Shown: one piece after another, positions 7,834 to 31,910 of the stretch
Position numbering within the stretch: position 1 is the first letter of the stretch
Layout of the letters: every line of letters begins with the position of its first letter
DNA from: Thomasclavelia saccharogumia DSM 17460
Lineage (GTDB): Bacteria; Bacillota_I; Bacilli_A; Erysipelotrichales; Coprobacillaceae
Length of the DNA: 32,453 nt
Assembly (NCBI RefSeq): GCF_000686665.1
Contig: NZ_JMLH01000032.1
Span: forward strand, 1-32,453
Direction: 5' to 3'
Notes under the pieces: generated by a model
The model's input: only the letters and a program-made list of their open reading frames with translations
What the model was told of the DNA's origin: nothing
Databases searched by the model: none
Made by a program: the position numbers and the translations under genes

Positions 7834-7842
7834 TAAAATTGT

Positions 7843-8038
7843 GGTATACATCTTGGTATACCACATAGTGACACTTTGGTATACCATATAATTCTGTCTA
7901 AAACTAAGCAAAGTCAACGTTGTTGACTTGTGCAAAATGGAAAATGTATACCAGAATGGTGACATTTTCCCTTATCCTGCTTTAGTAGTTTTTGGTATAC
8001 ATTTTGGTATACTAAAAACTTGTCTAAAGTTAAGCAAA
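7843..8038 (+). repeat. Array of GGTATAC(C) palindromes with longer repeats: candidate oriT or control region
   Basis: In this gene-free stretch the palindromic word GGTATACC or its GGTATAC/GTATACC variants occurs six times (starting at 7843, 7855, 7878, 7946, 7994 and 8006). The outer pairs have 12-base spacing on each side. Between them lies a perfect hairpin, AAGTCAAC-GTT-GTTGACTT (7911-7929). A near-identical direct repeat, GTCTAAAACTAAGCAAA (7896-7912) and GTCTAAAGTTAAGCAAA (8022-8038), is also present. GTGACA-(C/T)TTT also occurs twice. The region lies just before two DNA-binding-like proteins and the relaxase gene, the usual place of an oriT. Several TATAC words could also serve as -10 boxes, so repressor-controlled promoters are an alternative. 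Confidence 0.6.
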
Positions 8039-8045
8039 TAGAAAC

Positions 8046-8061
8046 ATGGCAAATTTGCCAT
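8046..8061. promoter_or_regulatory. Second copy of palindrome ATGGCAAATTTGCCAT
   Basis: A perfect 16-base palindrome, identical to the core of the hairpin at 596-611. It lies 30 bases before the start codon at 8092, while the first copy lies 28 bases before the start at 640. Here no T-run follows, so it is not a terminator. A shared operator for the two transfer operons is the simplest reading. Confidence 0.5.
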
Positions 8062-8091
8062 TGAACCTATTGATAAGATTAGGAGGTAATT

Positions 8092-8761: not shown

Positions 8762-9790
8762 ATGGATAATCAATCTTGGGAGTATATTTTTAAAAAATTC
8801 AATATTGATTATCATAAAGAAGGAAATAATTATTATATTTCTTTGAAGTCAATTATTAGTAATAAATCGATAAATTATACAGAAATTAATTATTTTATTA
8901 CTTATTTATATTCATATACTTTGCTTATGCCATTAGACTACTTAATTACTTTGAATTATAATAATAGTGAAATTATAATTAAGGAGCTGAGCAGTAGAAT
9001 GAAAAATTTTTATTTTGAGATAGATTATGATAAAAGGAATGAATATATTGATTCTGTATACGAAATTAATAACATCATAAATAAGGGACGGGTGACATTA
9101 TTCGTTAATAACATTCCTTTATATTTAAGAGCTTGTGTTTATGTAGAATGTAATAATGATGAATTAACAAAAGTGCTAGAAATAGCCAAAAAATATAATC
9201 TTATTTTTAAAACAGATAAGGGAATAAAAGATTTTTTTGCTGATATGGGAAATCGAATGTGGAATTCGGTGGATTTTCATTGTAACGAAAGTAAAGAAAT
9301 ATTTGATTTAATATTTAATAGTATGTTTTATTATAAAACGACATCTCAACTTCAAAAAGAAGGATATAATTTTTCGAGTGAATCAGTGAGAAAAAAAGTA
9401 TTTATTTCTTATTCGTGGAATGATGATGTATTTGTTGAAAATTTTGTTAATCAGTTAAAATACAGTGGAATAAGTGTATGGATAGATAAGCAGAGTATAG
9501 ACTTTGGTGATAATATTTTAGAAAGTTGTTTATCAGGATTGAATGAATGTGATGCTGCTTTGATTTTTATAAGTAAAAATTATAGTACCTCAGCTATGGC
9601 TAAACAAGAATTAATTACATTTTGGTCTAAAGCTATTAAACTTAAGAAGAAAATGTATGTAATCAAAATTGATGATGTAAATCCTGATGAAATATTTTTT
9701 GGATTAAGTGATTTGAAATATTTTGTACCAGGTAAAGACAGTATTGAATTATTAGCAGAGTCATTAAAAAGAAATTTGAATAATAACTAA
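8762..9790 (+). CDS. TIR-domain protein, probable NAD-cleaving or signalling effector
   Basis: A 342-residue protein. Residues 1-205 form an unrecognised domain, rich in Asn, Tyr and Ile, probably a sensor. Residues about 211-342 are a TIR domain: VFISYSWNDD at the start, VWIDKQSIDFGDNI, AALIFISKNYSTSAMAKQEL and a closing YFVPG segment. Glu283 in AKQEL aligns with the catalytic glutamate of NAD-cleaving TIR proteins. Bacterial TIR proteins commonly act in anti-phage abortive systems (Thoeris and related), and some protect plasmids or manipulate hosts. The gene sits between relaxosome genes and relaxase, bracketed by two hairpins, which suggests an inserted cassette. Good ribosome site (GGGGTGATA). 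Confidence 0.85.
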   Translation: MDNQSWEYIFKKFNIDYHKEGNNYYISLKSIISNKSINYTEINYFITYLYSYTLLMPLDYLITLNYNNSEIIIKELSSRMKNFYFEIDYDKRNEYIDSVYEINNIINKGRVTLFVNNIPLYLRACVYVECNNDELTKVLEIAKKYNLIFKTDKGIKDFFADMGNRMWNSVDFHCNESKEIFDLIFNSMFYYKTTSQLQKEGYNFSSESVRKKVFISYSWNDDVFVENFVNQLKYSGISVWIDKQSIDFGDNILESCLSGLNECDAALIFISKNYSTSAMAKQELITFWSKAIKLKKKMYVIKIDDVNPDEIFFGLSDLKYFVPGKDSIELLAESLKRNLNNN

Positions 9791-16547: not shown

Positions 16548-17765
16548 ATGTGTAGTTGTAGTTATAGGGATGAAGTGACATGTGCAAAAAAAGTAAATAA
16601 TAATATTCATGATGGAACAAGATTAAAGTTCAATGCATTTGAAAGATATACATATGCATGGCTAGAAAAAATTGTTAATTTCAATAAAAATAAAAGAAAT
16701 GATTTATATAATGTAAATTTTATTGATTGTATGGCAAGTTCTGGACTTTATTTCGATCATAAACATTATAATGATTTTTATGATGGAACAGCAATTAGAA
16801 TTTTTAAGATTTTTGTTAATTCTGCACGAAAGTATAAGGATATACAATTTAATATATTTTTAAATGATTATAATTCTCAATATATCGAATGTTTAAAATG
16901 TGTAAAAAAAAATGTAATTACAAATACCCCTAACAATTTGAAAATAATTATAACAGAAATGGATAAATATGATTACATAAATTTTTTAGCATGTGAAAAG
17001 GTGATTAATGGATATGGCAGTAAAAATTTGATAATTTATGATCCTTATGGTGTAGACTTTAATTGGAAATATTTATCTAAAATATTAAATATCAATGCCG
17101 ATTTCTTGTTTACCCATTTTTTTCCAAATGATATAAAGAGAAATATGAAGACGACTAATCCTGATATTGTATCAAGATATGAAGAAGCTTATTGTATGAA
17201 TTTTAATGAAATAAAAGAAAATTTTGATATTGAAAGTAATCCTTTTAAAAGAACAGCGTTTTTTCGAAATAGATTTCATGAAATATTAAAGAATAAATCA
17301 AATAAAAAATTTTTGGCATATGCACCTGTGATTTTAAAACGAACACTTCATGTTTATGATATAGTTTGTCTATCATATTCGTCATTTGCACAAGAATTAT
17401 TAAAAAATACCATGTACTCTTTATATAAGGAATATGAACTTGATCAGACTAATAAAGTTGCTATTCAATTAAAATTATTTGATGATGTAGTAGAAGATAG
17501 GTATGAAAATGATAGAAATAATGGAGTTTCAGAATTTAAATTTCATTATGATGATTCGCATATTTGTAAAATGTTCTACATTGAATTTAAAGGAAAAGTG
17601 ATACCGAAAACTGAATTTAAAAAAATATTAAGAGTTCATCCATATTTACCTACAAATATAATGAAGATGGTAAAAGGATTTTATAAATATAAAATTGAAA
17701 AAAAAGATATTAATGGAGAAGTGGTTGATTGTTATGTATTTCCTGATGGAGGGTTTAGTGTATGA
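16548..17765 (+). CDS. tcmP: TcmP, three-Cys-motif partner protein
   Basis: A 405-residue protein. Residues 55-80 hold the methyltransferase-like nucleotide site of this family (NFIDCMASSGLYFD, then YDGTAIRIF). Residues about 160-175 hold the family hallmark (NLIIYDPYGVDFNW, with Asp165-Pro-Tyr-Gly). The C-terminal third has no motif I know. TcmP proteins are defined by their pairing with a three-cysteine Gp37/Gp68 protein, and here that gene follows with a four-base overlap (ATGA). The N-terminus is unusually Cys-rich (MCSCSYRDEVTC). The in-frame stop at 16527 leaves ATG 16548 as the start; its ribosome site (GTGAGAG) is weak. The biochemical role of the pair is not firmly known. Confidence 0.82.
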   Translation: MCSCSYRDEVTCAKKVNNNIHDGTRLKFNAFERYTYAWLEKIVNFNKNKRNDLYNVNFIDCMASSGLYFDHKHYNDFYDGTAIRIFKIFVNSARKYKDIQFNIFLNDYNSQYIECLKCVKKNVITNTPNNLKIIITEMDKYDYINFLACEKVINGYGSKNLIIYDPYGVDFNWKYLSKILNINADFLFTHFFPNDIKRNMKTTNPDIVSRYEEAYCMNFNEIKENFDIESNPFKRTAFFRNRFHEILKNKSNKKFLAYAPVILKRTLHVYDIVCLSYSSFAQELLKNTMYSLYKEYELDQTNKVAIQLKLFDDVVEDRYENDRNNGVSEFKFHYDDSHICKMFYIEFKGKVIPKTEFKKILRVHPYLPTNIMKMVKGFYKYKIEKKDINGEVVDCYVFPDGGFSV

Positions 17766-18469
17766 ATAACACAAAAATAGAATGGACTGAGAAAACATGG
17801 AATCCTATTACAGGATGTAGTAGTGTAAGTTCTGGTTGTAAAAATTGTTATGCAAAAAAAATGGCAAAAAGATTGCATGCAATGGGGAATCCTAGATATA
17901 TAAATGAATTTGAAGTAACTGTTCATGAAGATCTTTTTGAGCAGCCATTAAATATTAAAAAGCCAAACATTATTTTTGTATGCTCTATGTCTGATTTGTT
18001 TCATGAAAATGTTCCATATAAAACTATTGAGCAGATCTTCGATATTATGAAACGAGCATATTGGCATGTATTTCAGGTTTTAACTAAAAGGCCTGAAAGG
18101 CTGTTAGAGTTTTCTAGAAAATATGAGATACCAAAAAATGTTTGGGTAGGAACTAGTGTTGAAAATGAAAGTGTTATTAATAGAGTCGATATTTTAAAAA
18201 ATGTTGAAGCTGAGATTCATTTTTTATCTTGTGAACCATTATTGGGCCCTCTAACTGAATTGAATTTGGATAAAATTCAATGGGTTGTAGTTGGAGGGGA
18301 ATCAGGAAGTAATGCACGTTCTGTTGATAAACAATGGATTATAGAAATCAGAGATAAATGTAAAGAAAAGAATGTTCCATTTTTTTTCAAACAATGGGGA
18401 GGATGGAACAAGAAAAAGAATGGTCATGAACTGGATGGCAAAGTATACAAAGAAATGCCATTGTATTAG
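17762..18469 (+). CDS. Phage Gp37/Gp68-family three-Cys-motif protein (DUF5131)
   Basis: A 235-residue protein that opens with the family signature IEWTEKTWNPITGC. Three cysteines, Cys19-x6-Cys26-x2-Cys29 (TGCSSVSSGCKNCYA), could bind an iron-sulfur cluster, and a radical-SAM-like barrel follows: FVCSMSDLFHE, VFQVLTKRPERL, VWVGTSVENE, LSCEPLLGP, VVVGGESGS and FFKQWGGW. Families of this type occur in phages and mobile elements and are always close to TcmP. A chemical modification of DNA, RNA or protein is likely, with TcmP as partner. Length is typical and all motifs are intact. The gene ends before two strong terminators. Confidence 0.88.
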   Translation: MNNTKIEWTEKTWNPITGCSSVSSGCKNCYAKKMAKRLHAMGNPRYINEFEVTVHEDLFEQPLNIKKPNIIFVCSMSDLFHENVPYKTIEQIFDIMKRAYWHVFQVLTKRPERLLEFSRKYEIPKNVWVGTSVENESVINRVDILKNVEAEIHFLSCEPLLGPLTELNLDKIQWVVVGGESGSNARSVDKQWIIEIRDKCKEKNVPFFFKQWGGWNKKKNGHELDGKVYKEMPLY

Positions 18470-18604: not shown

Positions 18605-19699
18605 ATGACTTTAAATGAATTATTTGGAAAATATTTAGAAGATATAGATTTAACACATCAAACTACAACAATTGATGCTATTAAATATAGGTATAACGCA
18701 CATATTAAACCTATTTTTGGTGAAGAGGAAATAGAAAAAATTACTTTCTTAAAGGTGAAAAAATACCAGAAAGAACTGGTAGATGGACTATACAGGTCAA
18801 GAAAGAATCAAGTATTTACACCTGCTTATATAAATATTATTATTGGACTTTTAAAAAGATTATTAAAATATGCTAATTTAATGAAATATGCTCAAATAAA
18901 TATAGATGAACTTAGAGGTTTAGAATTAATTAAAGATATTGTAGACAAGTATAAGTTGAAGGATTCGCAAATTGTATGGAGTATTAAGGAATTTAATCAA
19001 TTTATTGACGTAGTTGAAGATAAACAATATAAAGTATTATTTAATATACTTTATTATTGTGGCCTTAGAAAAGGAGAAGTACTTTCACTTCGGTGGAATA
19101 ATGTTGATTTAATTGAATCAACATTAACTATTAACTCTACGGCATGTAAAATTAGGGGAAAGGGTCAGGTAGTAAAAAAGCCTAAAACAAATAATTCTAT
19201 TAGAACCATTTTTATTAATTCTAGTCTTAGAGATCTTTTGTTAGAATACTTTCTTGAGGTAAAGAAAGATTTTAAAAATATGGATGATTTATATATTATA
19301 GGAGGTATTAAAATGATTAGTTTTAGTACACTTGATAGAAGGTTTTCTCATTATCTTAATGTTTCAGGTGTAAAGCGTATGAATTTACACGGTTTTAGAC
19401 ATAGTCACGCAACTATGCTATTAGAACTCACGAATGATATCTATAGTGTTTCAAAACGTTTAGGGCATGAATCAATTGAGGTAACAGAAATATATATACA
19501 TAGTGGATCTAATGCAGAAAAAGAGATTATTGAAAAAATGGAGTGTGCGATAAGAAATACTTCAGTTAAAAATTCTTTTGATGAATTGAAAAAAGAACTT
19601 GAACATAGGCTAATAAAGGAGATAAATTCTTATGATTATTCTAGTGATGAAATTAGAAAAATAATAAACATATATAATTTTATTAAAAGTTGTGCCTAG
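18605..19699 (+). CDS. int: Tyrosine recombinase (integrase) of the conjugative element
   Basis: A 364-residue site-specific recombinase. Residues 1-115 form the SAM-like core-binding domain (YLEDIDLTHQTTTIDAIKYR and the following helices). No N-terminal arm-binding domain of the Tn916 type is evident. The catalytic residues are present: Arg155 in CGLRKGE, His262-x-x-Arg265 in HGFRHSH, His288 in LGHES and Tyr297 in EIYIH. The last 45 residues extend beyond the catalytic core as a helical tail. The enzyme would excise and integrate the element. Ribosome site AGAGGGAGAG. No excisionase gene is evident beside it. Its position at the right end of the conjugation cluster suggests that an attachment site lies nearby. 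Confidence 0.92.
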   Translation: MTLNELFGKYLEDIDLTHQTTTIDAIKYRYNAHIKPIFGEEEIEKITFLKVKKYQKELVDGLYRSRKNQVFTPAYINIIIGLLKRLLKYANLMKYAQINIDELRGLELIKDIVDKYKLKDSQIVWSIKEFNQFIDVVEDKQYKVLFNILYYCGLRKGEVLSLRWNNVDLIESTLTINSTACKIRGKGQVVKKPKTNNSIRTIFINSSLRDLLLEYFLEVKKDFKNMDDLYIIGGIKMISFSTLDRRFSHYLNVSGVKRMNLHGFRHSHATMLLELTNDIYSVSKRLGHESIEVTEIYIHSGSNAEKEIIEKMECAIRNTSVKNSFDELKKELEHRLIKEINSYDYSSDEIRKIINIYNFIKSCA

Positions 19700-19958: not shown

Positions 19959-20210
19959 CTATAGCTTATTTTCATCTATATAAAGATTGGTTGTAAGTGT
20001 TTCGATAATTTCATCATTATCATTTATTAGGGCTACTTTCAAATTGTTAATTTCAGCAAATTTGATTAAATCTTTTAAGTTAAACCTTGTTTCGCAACTT
20101 CTGAATTTATTATTGAAACTATTATATGGCATATCATAGTACTTAGAAAGTTCTTTTTGTGAAATTCCATTTTTTGAAGCAATAGATTTTAATTTTTCAA
20201 AATAAGTCAT
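19959..20210 (-). CDS. Small XRE-type (Cro/C1) DNA-binding regulator
   Basis: An 83-residue protein on the opposite strand to the integrase. Residues 5-60 are a helix-turn-helix of the Cro/C1 type (KLKSIASKNGISQKELSKYY, then a basic recognition helix region NSFNNKFRS), followed by a short strand-rich tail (LKVALINDNDEIIETL). A perfect AGGAGG precedes the start, and an inverted repeat immediately upstream of it may be its own operator. It may control the integrase or the element, or be a host gene; position between integrase and tRNA does not settle this. 259 bases separate it from the integrase stop. I see no gene in that gap. Confidence 0.75.
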   Translation of the reverse strand: MTYFEKLKSIASKNGISQKELSKYYDMPYNSFNNKFRSCETRFNLKDLIKFAEINNLKVALINDNDEIIETLTTNLYIDENKL

Positions 20211-20408: not shown

Positions 20409-20437
20409 TTGATATTGAAGCACATGTGTGCTATAAT
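20409..20437 (+). promoter_or_regulatory. Consensus promoter without a following coding gene
   Basis: TTGATA (20409-20414), a 17-base spacer and TATAAT (20432-20437) preceded by TGC, so nearly consensus with an extended -10. It points at a region with no + strand gene but with five hairpins and a terminator. Confidence 0.75.
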
Positions 20438-20442
20438 CAAAG

Positions 20443-20657
20443 TACAAAATAAAAAATACGCTTTAGCACAAGCGTATCACATATAAATAGCTATCTAAAA
20501 GGGAGATAACTATATTATAACTATTACTTGAATAGTTAGGTTATATAAAATGAATTACGTAACCCGTAACTCAATTATAACATAATAAGCATTACTTTCA
20601 AGAATAAAAGTATAATATTGATTATCCAAACACAGATAGCGTTTGGATTTTTATTTT
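20443..20657 (+). ncRNA. Candidate structured non-coding RNA, about 215 nt
   Basis: The transcript from the promoter at 20409-20437 contains no convincing reading frame. It can fold into a row of hairpins: 20456-20477 (ATACGCTT/AAGCGTAT), 20487-20513 (ATAGCTATCT/AGATAACTAT, one mismatch), 20518-20538 (TAACTATT/AATAGTTA), and 20540-20581 (outer GTTATA/TATAAC, inner TTACG/CGTAA). It ends in a terminator at 20624-20657 (ATCCAAAC/GTTTGGAT plus T-run). I do not recognise a family; 6S RNA, tmRNA and SRP RNA features are absent. It lies between the XRE gene and tRNA-His. It fills the gap of over 500 bases between these two. Confidence 0.5.
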
Positions 20658-20678
20658 AAAGTAAAAATCCTTAATGAT

Positions 20679-20722
20679 ATGACACTGGATGATACTAACT
20701 ATGACACCAGATGATACTGATT
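20679..20722. repeat. Tandem 22-bp imperfect repeat next to tRNA-His
   Basis: ATGACACTGGATGATACT at 20679 recurs at 20701 as ATGACACCAGATGATACT, period 22, two differences in these 18 bases. The pair sits between inverted arms AGTAAAAATC (20660-20669) and GATTTTTACT (20719-20728), about 20 bases beyond the 3' end of the tRNA. It may be part of tRNA 3' processing or termination, or an old attachment site. Confidence 0.5.
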
Positions 20723-20741
20723 TTTACTGAATTAATTAACT

Positions 20742-20818
20742 TGGGGCGGACGATGGGGATCGAACCCACGAATGCCAGAGCCACAATCTGGTGTGTTAAC
20801 CACTTCACCACGTCCGCC
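20742..20818 (-). tRNA. tRNA-His (anticodon GTG)
   Basis: On the - strand the gene begins GGCGGACG and ends CGTCCGCC-CCA, giving the 8-bp acceptor stem with the extra G(-1):C73 pair that marks histidine tRNA. The anticodon stem CCAGA/TCTGG encloses TTGTGGC, anticodon GTG. The T arm contains GGTTCGATCC. The CCA end is encoded. A run of other tRNA genes is not seen beside it. Confidence 0.97.
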
Positions 20819-21326: not shown

Positions 21327-22261
21327 TTAAGATAATAGAATGTCTTTTAGACAACCAAAAAATTCTCTTATGTAATAATGCGGTGCTGTATATAAGTTTT
21401 CTTTAGCACTATATGTATGAGCTATTAAATTATGCTTGTTTGCAAGCAATTGGCTTCGATAACAATGAAAGCCGTTTGTTATGATCGTTACACTGCAGCT
21501 GCTTTTATTTAATGAATCAATAATTTTTTTACTATAAATAATATTTTCGTTTGTATTTGTACTTTTATCTTCTTCAATAATCAAACTTTCATTAATGCCT
21601 TTATCAACAAGATATTTTTTCATTGCTTTGGCTTCGCTGATTTCTTCACCATTACCACGACCACCACTAACAATAATTGGTGTTGTTGGAAATGTTTGAT
21701 GGTAATCAATGGCAGCCTCTAATCGATATTTTAATGAGTTAGATGGAATACTACCATTCAAGTGAGCTCCTAATACGATTATATAATCACTTGCTTCATT
21801 ATATTGTTTATTTGCTTTGTATATTATTGATCCTTCGATTATTATAAATAAAGATAAACTAAAAATTCCGAATCCCTTAATGATATAATAGGTGTGAAAC
21901 TAATGCGTGCTTTGCATGGAGAATATCATATATTCGCACATGCGATGCAAAGGACGCATTAGTTTGATTGTACGAAATCGCAAGATTTTCGTGCAAGAAA
22001 ACGTTAGTTTCACACCTATTGTACGAAAGAGTACCGTAGGTGCGATTTCGTACAATTTAATTTAAGCGGCAGTTTAGATAAAATACTAAAATGTGTTTTT
22101 AGTTCATAGTTTCCGTAAAATCTAGTGATAAAAGAAAGTATTGGGTAAGCGAGGTATGCTGGAATAAAACGAGAATTTGCAATAACGAGTATAAAGTATC
22201 CCATTGATAATATTGATAAAATAATTAAAACAAAGTCAAATAATATACAATTTTTTTTCAT
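21327..22261 (-). pseudogene. DUF218 (YdcF/SanA-like) membrane protein gene, interrupted
   Basis: The N-terminal part (from the ATG at 22261) reads MKKNCILFDFVLIILSILSM and carries two hydrophobic segments. The C-terminal part is a typical DUF218 domain: DYIIVLGAHLNGSIPSNSLK, VSGGRGNGEEISEA, an acidic STNTNENI segment and TNGFHCYRS. Between them lies a 176-bp insertion (21881-22056) flanked by TTAA. Removing it with one TTAA copy joins the halves in frame (LPLKLKGFGIFSL, then FIIIEGSIIY), with a membrane helix restored. The insertion brings a stop (TAG at 22016). DUF218 proteins such as ElyC and SanA act in envelope maintenance; this copy should be inactive unless the C-terminal part starts at an internal TTG (21761). 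Confidence 0.75.
21881..22056. mobile_element. 176-bp MITE-like element with nested inverted repeats
   Basis: It interrupts the DUF218 gene and is bounded by TTAA at 21877-21880 and 22057-22060, a likely target duplication. Inside are three pairs of inverted repeats: a 21-base pair at 21897-21917 and 21945-21965 (one mismatch), a 16-base pair ATAGGTGTGAAACTAA at 21888 with its complement at 22004-22019, and a 15-base pair TTGTACGAAATCGCA at 21968 with its complement at 22041-22055. The second and third pairs interlock, so the RNA or single strand could form alternative folds. No reading frame of note and no transposase. Confidence 0.65.
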
Positions 22262-31642: not shown

Positions 31643-31910
31643 ATAGATTAAATACGATGAATTGAAATAGTAGACTAGGCATTTAGGCAAAGAGAGTACT
31701 GGGCTGGTGTGACGGTATCCAAATAAATAGTTGAATACATCAAGGAGTAGAATGTTGAATTGAGTAGGCATCTCCGGTTACACCCGTTAAAGTGTCAGAG
31801 TATGAACTATATAATAAATAGCGTACTTGATGAGGCTGATAGGGTGATCTATTAGTGAATAAAGGTGGTACCACGAAGTTATCTCGTCCTTTGATCAGGA
31901 CGAGTTTTTT
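31643..31910 (+). promoter_or_regulatory. T-box riboswitch leader, probably tyrosine-specific
   Basis: The typical parts are in order: Stem I 5' strand with a GATGA and an AGTA element (31656-31672), the distal AGAGAG...CTGGTG region (31691-31709), the 3' strand with GAATACATC (31734-31742), and the T-box itself AAAGGTGGTACCACG (31861-31875). A terminator closes the leader, CTCGTCCT and AGGACGAG plus T6 (31883-31910). By alignment to the usual GAA-NNN-AUC pattern the specifier is TAC (31736-31738), tyrosine. Uncharged tRNA-Tyr would stabilise the antiterminator and switch on aroF. T-box identity is firm; the specifier is a reading from memory of the consensus. Confidence 0.92.

Follow-up and report, generated by a model that had tools for sequence, protein, structure and literature searches.

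The right end of an ICE inserted at tRNA-His in Thomasclavelia saccharogumia DSM 17460 carries a compact, strongly folded unit with a putative promoter and a putative terminator on each strand. The reading that we rank first, and hold tentatively, takes the unit for a control region in which a leader, driven by a promoter facing the circle junction, is subject to a counter-transcribed RNA, with attenuation resembling that by RNAIII of pIP501. The window, that is, the whole stretch of 32,453 nt analysed, holds the ICE in its first 20.74 kb.

The right end of the ICE

A tyrosine integrase and a MobL relaxase are among the genes of the ICE, and its VirB4- and TraG-like genes were recognised by reading of the translated open reading frames. 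The integrase gene adjoins tRNA-His, the sole intact copy found in the genome. The preliminary description placed the unit between a regulator and tRNA-His, in agreement with the position of the tRNA gene (20742-20817, minus strand), and presumed an element boundary close by. This boundary is now shown: a second copy of the 24-bp att core occurs on another contig of the same genome (G000:C8:10594-10617), so that both attR and attL are known and the RNA locus falls inside the ICE, where the folded unit lies 85 bp from the attR core. The features surrounding the unit are as follows.

18605..19699, plus strand: tyrosine integrase of the ICE (PF00589, PF14659)
19959..20210, minus strand: 83-aa HTH-type small regulator, between the integrase and the plus-strand promoter (list of open reading frames)
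20660..20728, no strand assigned: right-end repeats, with an inverted repeat AGTAAAAATC/GATTTTTACT around direct repeats TGACACTGGATGATACT (20680) and TGACACCAGATGATACT (20702) (direct reading)
20742..20817, minus strand: tRNA-His(GTG), the integration target (sequence search)
20743..20766, plus strand: attR core GGGGCGGACGATGGGGATCGAACC, 24 bp, the 3' end of tRNA-His (repeat search in the genome)

The right-end repeats are probably integrase arm sites; an inverted TGACAC pair is present at the left end of the ICE too. We regard the HTH-type regulator as a candidate repressor. Its only NCBIfam match is a weak one, to a sigma-like HTH segment, and as a query it retrieved no relatives from 294 genomes of the order; weak relatives occur in viral contigs.

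Elsewhere in the ICE, a 405-aa protein with a DUF5131 (Gp37/Gp68-type) partner (16548-18469) and a TIR-domain protein (8762-9790) are possible defence cargo. A strongly folded stretch with repeated GGTATACC palindromes (7834-8091; DNA z -7.2) lies upstream of the MobL relaxase, with an NlpC-type gene on one side and two small genes, possibly of the ribbon-helix-helix type, on the other, and is a candidate oriT or operator region. For its GC content, no stretch of the window folds better than 21800-22120 (plus strand; -101.6 kcal/mol, z -8.3), a long imperfect hairpin that lies past tRNA-His in the host chromosome, with a partly broken gene nearby; no Rfam match was obtained for it. A T-box leader lies near the window end (31648-31894; Rfam RF00230, 121 bits).

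Predicted transcripts and folds on the two strands

20409..20437, plus strand: outward-facing extended -10 promoter TTGATA-17-TATAAT with TG before the -10, predicted start ~20444 (consensus, 11/12)
20444..20657, plus strand: predicted sense leader RNA, ~214 nt, heading to att (folds, direct reading)
20490..20496, plus strand: GCTATCT, predicted partner of AGATAGC (20634-20640) in the loop of the plus-strand terminator, a competing structure (fold model)
20624..20657, plus strand: terminator or putative attenuator, ATCCAAAC, 9-nt loop and GTTTGGAT, then TTTTTATTTT (folds; hairpin -8.6 kcal/mol)
20443..20657, minus strand: whole folded unit, six hairpins and an end-closing stem (-61.5 kcal/mol, z -8.45)
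20649-20657/20446-20454, minus strand: end stem of the unit (fold)
20624-20648, minus strand: hairpin H1 (fold)
20593-20612, minus strand: hairpin H2 (fold)
20540-20581, minus strand: hairpin H3 (fold)
20518-20538, minus strand: hairpin H4 (fold)
20487-20513, minus strand: hairpin H5, loop CUCCCUU (fold)
20455-20478, minus strand: hairpin H6 (fold)
20574..20601, minus strand: counter promoter TTGAAA-16-TG.TATAAT of the predicted antisense RNA, start ~20567 (consensus)
20446..20567, minus strand: predicted antisense RNA, ~120 nt, covering part of H3, H4, H5 and the terminator H6 (fold)
20446..20478, minus strand: putative terminator H6, GATACGCTTGTGCTAAAGCGTATTTTTTATTTTG, hairpin and U-run (terminator scan)

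The preliminary description proposed a single plus-strand RNA of about 215 bases without a reading frame, with a near-perfect extended -10 promoter, five hairpins and a terminator. The plus-strand signals are borne out: the promoter scores 11/12 against the consensus, and as good a plus-strand site arose there in 0 of 2000 shuffles; the span of ~214 nt has no reading frame over 24 codons; a terminator hairpin with a 9-nt loop is seen in the folds; and the strand folds beyond chance (-43.2 kcal/mol, z -5.2, with 0 of 200 shuffles as low). Overlooked were an equally good promoter on the minus strand (20601-20574), matched in 1 of 2000 shuffles (fraction 0.0005), and a minus-strand terminator; all promoter and terminator calls rest on consensus. 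In place of the one new small RNA then suggested, there are most likely two, a plus-strand leader and a shorter minus-strand antisense RNA.

In a GC-corrected energy scan of the window, only one 215-nt stretch folds better than the unit. The better structure is that of the minus strand, with its six hairpins and end stem. A single A-C mismatch had been described in several stems; the plus-strand fold indeed contains three 1x1 A-C mismatches and no G-U pairs, and the minus-strand fold, in which the same positions pair as G-U, contains five G-U pairs and no mismatches. Read from the opposite strand, an A-C mismatch becomes a G-U pair, and this exchange, together with the better minus-strand fold, favours the minus strand for the window's copy.

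The two predicted RNAs would overlap head-on (sense 20444-20657, antisense ~20567-20446). The antisense segment 20446-20567 has a z of -4.9 on the minus strand against -3.4 on the plus strand, and its RNA is predicted to form stem-loops and to end in a terminator beside the sense start. Under every model, this terminator probably also stops read-through from tRNA-His; the tRNA gene points into the element, and no minus-strand terminator precedes hairpin H3. In the fold model of the leader, the GCTATCT/AGATAGC pairing has a probability of ~0.59, against 0.41 for the terminator stem, and blocking the antisense-covered positions (20446-20567) in the nested-fold model raises the probability of the plus-strand terminator from 0.41 to 1.0. 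The 7-bp contact may instead be a pseudoknot that can coexist with this terminator.

Related elements at the same att site

No nucleotide relatives of the window's unit were found in plasmids, phages or 98 related genomes, and its exact hairpin pattern does not occur in viral contigs. A single 30-bp match (L002) was dismissed as chance; its place looks like coding sequence. The search of RNA family databases suggested in the preliminary description yielded no family: Rfam covariance models, at gathering and permissive E-values, matched only the tRNA at the locus. Relatives were reached via integrase relatives and tRNA-His loci. Elements of sister species at the same tRNA-His att site carry unrelated sequence in the same place, and four types are distinguished.

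Type A: the window's unit, one sequence only
Type B: L010 and L015; a remnant next to a partial core (L011); a decayed copy (L110); a fragment beside the attL of the window's own element (L105)
Type C: L012
Type D: L109

A type D flank, with the RNA deleted, was found at the attL of a type B element (L106). In the examined elements with an intact unit, the unit is located between the int-side genes and the core. Remnants of earlier elements, either an RNA unit or its flank, sit immediately beside att cores (L105:3485-3600, L011:4018-4340, L106:1570-1673), which points to repeated insertion at tRNA-His in the genus. Together with the different types found at this one tRNA, they suggest that elements have displaced one another or piled up there.

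All four types display an extended -10 on the plus strand just before an A-rich run and a hairpin; the chance expectation for an extended -10 in AT-rich DNA is ~0.0015 per base. Facing promoters with an overlapping sense leader and antisense RNA can be traced in the sequences of types A and B: the minus-strand promoter of type B reads TTGAAT-17-TG.TATAAT, the two promoters are spaced by 144 bp, against 147 bp in type A, and a 12-bp terminator with a U-run follows on the minus strand. The minus-strand promoters of types C and D were no better than chance in shuffles. At the position of the H6 terminator, a hairpin and TTTTTTATTT occur on the minus strand in types B and C, and more weakly in type D. 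Type D also has a plus-strand hairpin with GGATTTTTATTT, similar to the window's plus-strand terminator; such a terminator is absent in type B and only weak in type C.

Strand preference differs among the types. Types B and C fold with z -6.5 and z -8.0, respectively, on the plus strand, and type D with z -6.6 on the minus strand. The minus-strand fold is better by 18 kcal/mol in types A and D (shuffle mean 5-8), whereas in types B and C the plus-strand fold is equally good or better, so that their preference is plus or undecided. Covariance among homologues, another check suggested earlier, comes down to the few informative substitutions of type B, which lie in a long-range stem and keep its pairs as G-U on the plus strand; the window type is a single sequence. 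The strict claim that all four types share one P1/long-range-stem architecture was given up, as inner folds and strand preference differ. What the types have in common, as far as their sequences tell, is the layout, and we do not group them into one RNA family.

The left end and the excised circle

The left-end gene of the window's ICE has a Shine-Dalgarno site, starts 120 bp past the core and is followed by parA; no promoter was found before it. The type B element has a homologue of this gene (32%) as well as parA-parB, and no promoter was found before the first left-end gene either. Between att and the operon of the window's ICE lies a strong hairpin with a T-run (-22 kcal/mol). Type B likewise has a hairpin with a T-run after att, and in both types these may be read, by sequence, as insulator terminators of the Tn916 kind. 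Terminators were also seen in L153. In a relative, G013 (integrase 40% identical), the element lies whole on one contig, and an 11/12 promoter at its int end points outward; at its other end, past the att, tRNA-Ser and two terminators, with no promoter found, precede a homologous left-end gene. It has this promoter and operon layout without a structured leader. An outward promoter at one end is combined with a promoterless operon at the other in types A and B and in G013; judging from these layouts, the pattern is a wider one, comparable to that of Porf7 and its operon in Tn916 (PMC11658703).

The left-end gene family is present in 16/294 genomes of the order, in several cases as the first gene after a tRNA, behind terminators; the gene has no relatives in the plasmid collection. 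It does not encode a recognised replication protein, and a MobA_MobL match was obtained for one homologue only, below threshold. In several elements, an inverted repeat ACATTAAAGC..GCTTTAATGT is conserved immediately before the left-end gene (L144, L145, L146, L147, L106:2608-2630); it is possibly an operator or binding site of the gene product.

Because the left operon is promoterless and begins 120 bp from the core, the plus-strand promoter would, in the excised circle, read the leader and attP into it from ~420 nt upstream of the operon (a MobA/MobL-like gene, then parA). In the integrated state, the same transcript would lead only towards tRNA-His and be stopped. In our first-ranked reading, the strong outward promoter would produce the structured leader, able to end at the terminator before attR, and the facing promoter inside the leader would produce the stem-loop antisense RNA that ends beside the plus-strand start. 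By binding the 5' part of the leader, the antisense RNA would bring about the terminator form, and operon expression would fall as copies rise. The arrangement would amount to an attenuation module as in pIP501, cut in two by integration, with the minus-strand terminator capping read-through from tRNA-His, an essential gene. The left-end protein may act in replication. The left-end hairpin before the operon would need read-through in the circle, and the missing or weak plus-strand terminator of types B and C implies that attenuation may not be general. The suggestion that the locus belongs to the control of the element gains support from the position of the unit inside the ICE next to attR, from the recurrence of the module at related att sites and from the promoterless left operon that it would face in the circle.

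Alternative readings

The main rival, which we consider unlikely, has the plus-strand leader act in cis as a processive antiterminator like canT of Tn916, letting RNA polymerase pass the left-end insulator terminators in the circle, and ascribes the minus-strand features to a tRNA-His terminator and chance. Tn916 shows the matching order of right-end promoter, structured RNA, att, insulator terminator and operon (PMC11658703). The left-end hairpins with T-runs past att in types A and B, the terminators of L153, the strong plus-strand folds of types B and C and the G-U pairs kept on that strand in type B all agree with it. The window type fits less well: its leader ends in a plus-strand terminator of its own and contains a strong minus-strand promoter, and its better fold and G-U pairs are on the minus strand; in G013, moreover, the layout dispenses with the structured leader.

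Third, and improbable, comes a bidirectional insulator without regulatory RNA, which would only keep tRNA-His read-through out of the ICE and ICE transcripts out of tRNA-His. It accords with the terminators bounding the unit in both directions, with the orientation of the only tRNA-His copy found and the lack of a minus-strand terminator before H3, and with the terminators next to the tRNA in elements inserted the other way round. It leaves unexplained the facing promoters, which exceed chance and keep the same spacing in two unrelated types, as well as four extra hairpins and the z of -8.45.

Free-standing units from promoter to terminator on both strands, a C-rich loop (UCUCCC) on the minus strand and tRNA-His transcription pointing into that strand would suit a trans-acting small RNA, either a free RNA or a processed tRNA-His trailer. 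It might act on transfer genes in the manner of RteR, or bind ribosome sites through the CUCCCUU loop of the minus strand. We think this quite improbable: loop sequences are not kept between types, and the place beside att and the facing promoters fit a role in cis better. RteR of CTnDOT is a ~90-nt trans-acting RNA of Bacteroides, and the locus likewise presents a candidate ICE-encoded regulatory RNA near excision genes, but, unlike in CTnDOT, nothing ties it to tra mRNA.

A role at the level of DNA, as a single-strand replication origin or as palindromes for recombination, is hardly credible: hairpins do form on both strands at the element end, and TAGCGT at 20638, in the end-hairpin region, is a motif that we take to resemble the CS-6 box of ssoA, but it was not seen by eye in types B-D, a surplus of G-U pairs over A-C mismatches on one of the strands is typical of RNA, and the promoters and terminators sit where transcription would need them. 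Another reading, in which the minus-strand transcript attenuates the HTH gene, was rejected, type B having no such gene downstream.

Comparison with known systems

In pIP501, the repR leader is subject to attenuation by RNAIII (136 nt), and the small CopR protein acts upstream (PMC4981023). The RNAII/RNAIII-CopR systems of the Inc18 plasmids pIP501, pAMbeta1 and pSM19035 (PMC4981023) share with the locus, as predicted from its sequence, an upstream gene for a small DNA-binding protein, a sense promoter, a structured leader with an inner counter promoter and a terminator, a stem-loop antisense RNA of ~120-136 nt, and a gene of interest downstream. Unlike in Inc18, the locus lies at the end of an ICE, its module is parted from the operon by integration, and no RepR homologue was seen in the ICE; the regulator is on the opposite strand, its likeness to CopR being one of position, and attenuation is predicted.

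Tn916, where Porf7 drives the operon across the circle junction, resembles the locus in its order of Porf7, canT, att and T1: transcription from a right-end promoter runs through a structured RNA and over the junction, past an insulator terminator, into a left operon that lacks a promoter (PMC11658703). The locus differs by its own plus-strand terminator at the leader end and by its facing antisense promoter. The likeness described is one of layout, and the window's ICE has a fixed tRNA-His site, against the many sites of Tn916.

Structured RNAs next to integrase genes are also found among Rfam motifs such as int-alpA, but the locus matched no Rfam family, even at permissive E-values.

Implications

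That the layout recurs with unrelated sequences suggests that the layout, and not the sequence, is under selection. A bolder form of our first-ranked reading, possible but doubtful, has a copy-control module split between the ends of the ICE, with leader and antisense RNA at one end and the controlled operon at the other. Attenuation would then operate only in the circle and couple replication control to excision, and one element after another at this tRNA-His would have exchanged the module for unrelated sequence with the layout unchanged. Only a few models (Tn916, ICEBs1) show how ICEs silence their replication genes in the integrated state and restrict their plasmid-like phase. If the reading is true, a leader driven by a junction promoter and accompanied by an antisense RNA of its own would add a simple copy-sensing switch, in gut bacteria of the Erysipelotrichales type.
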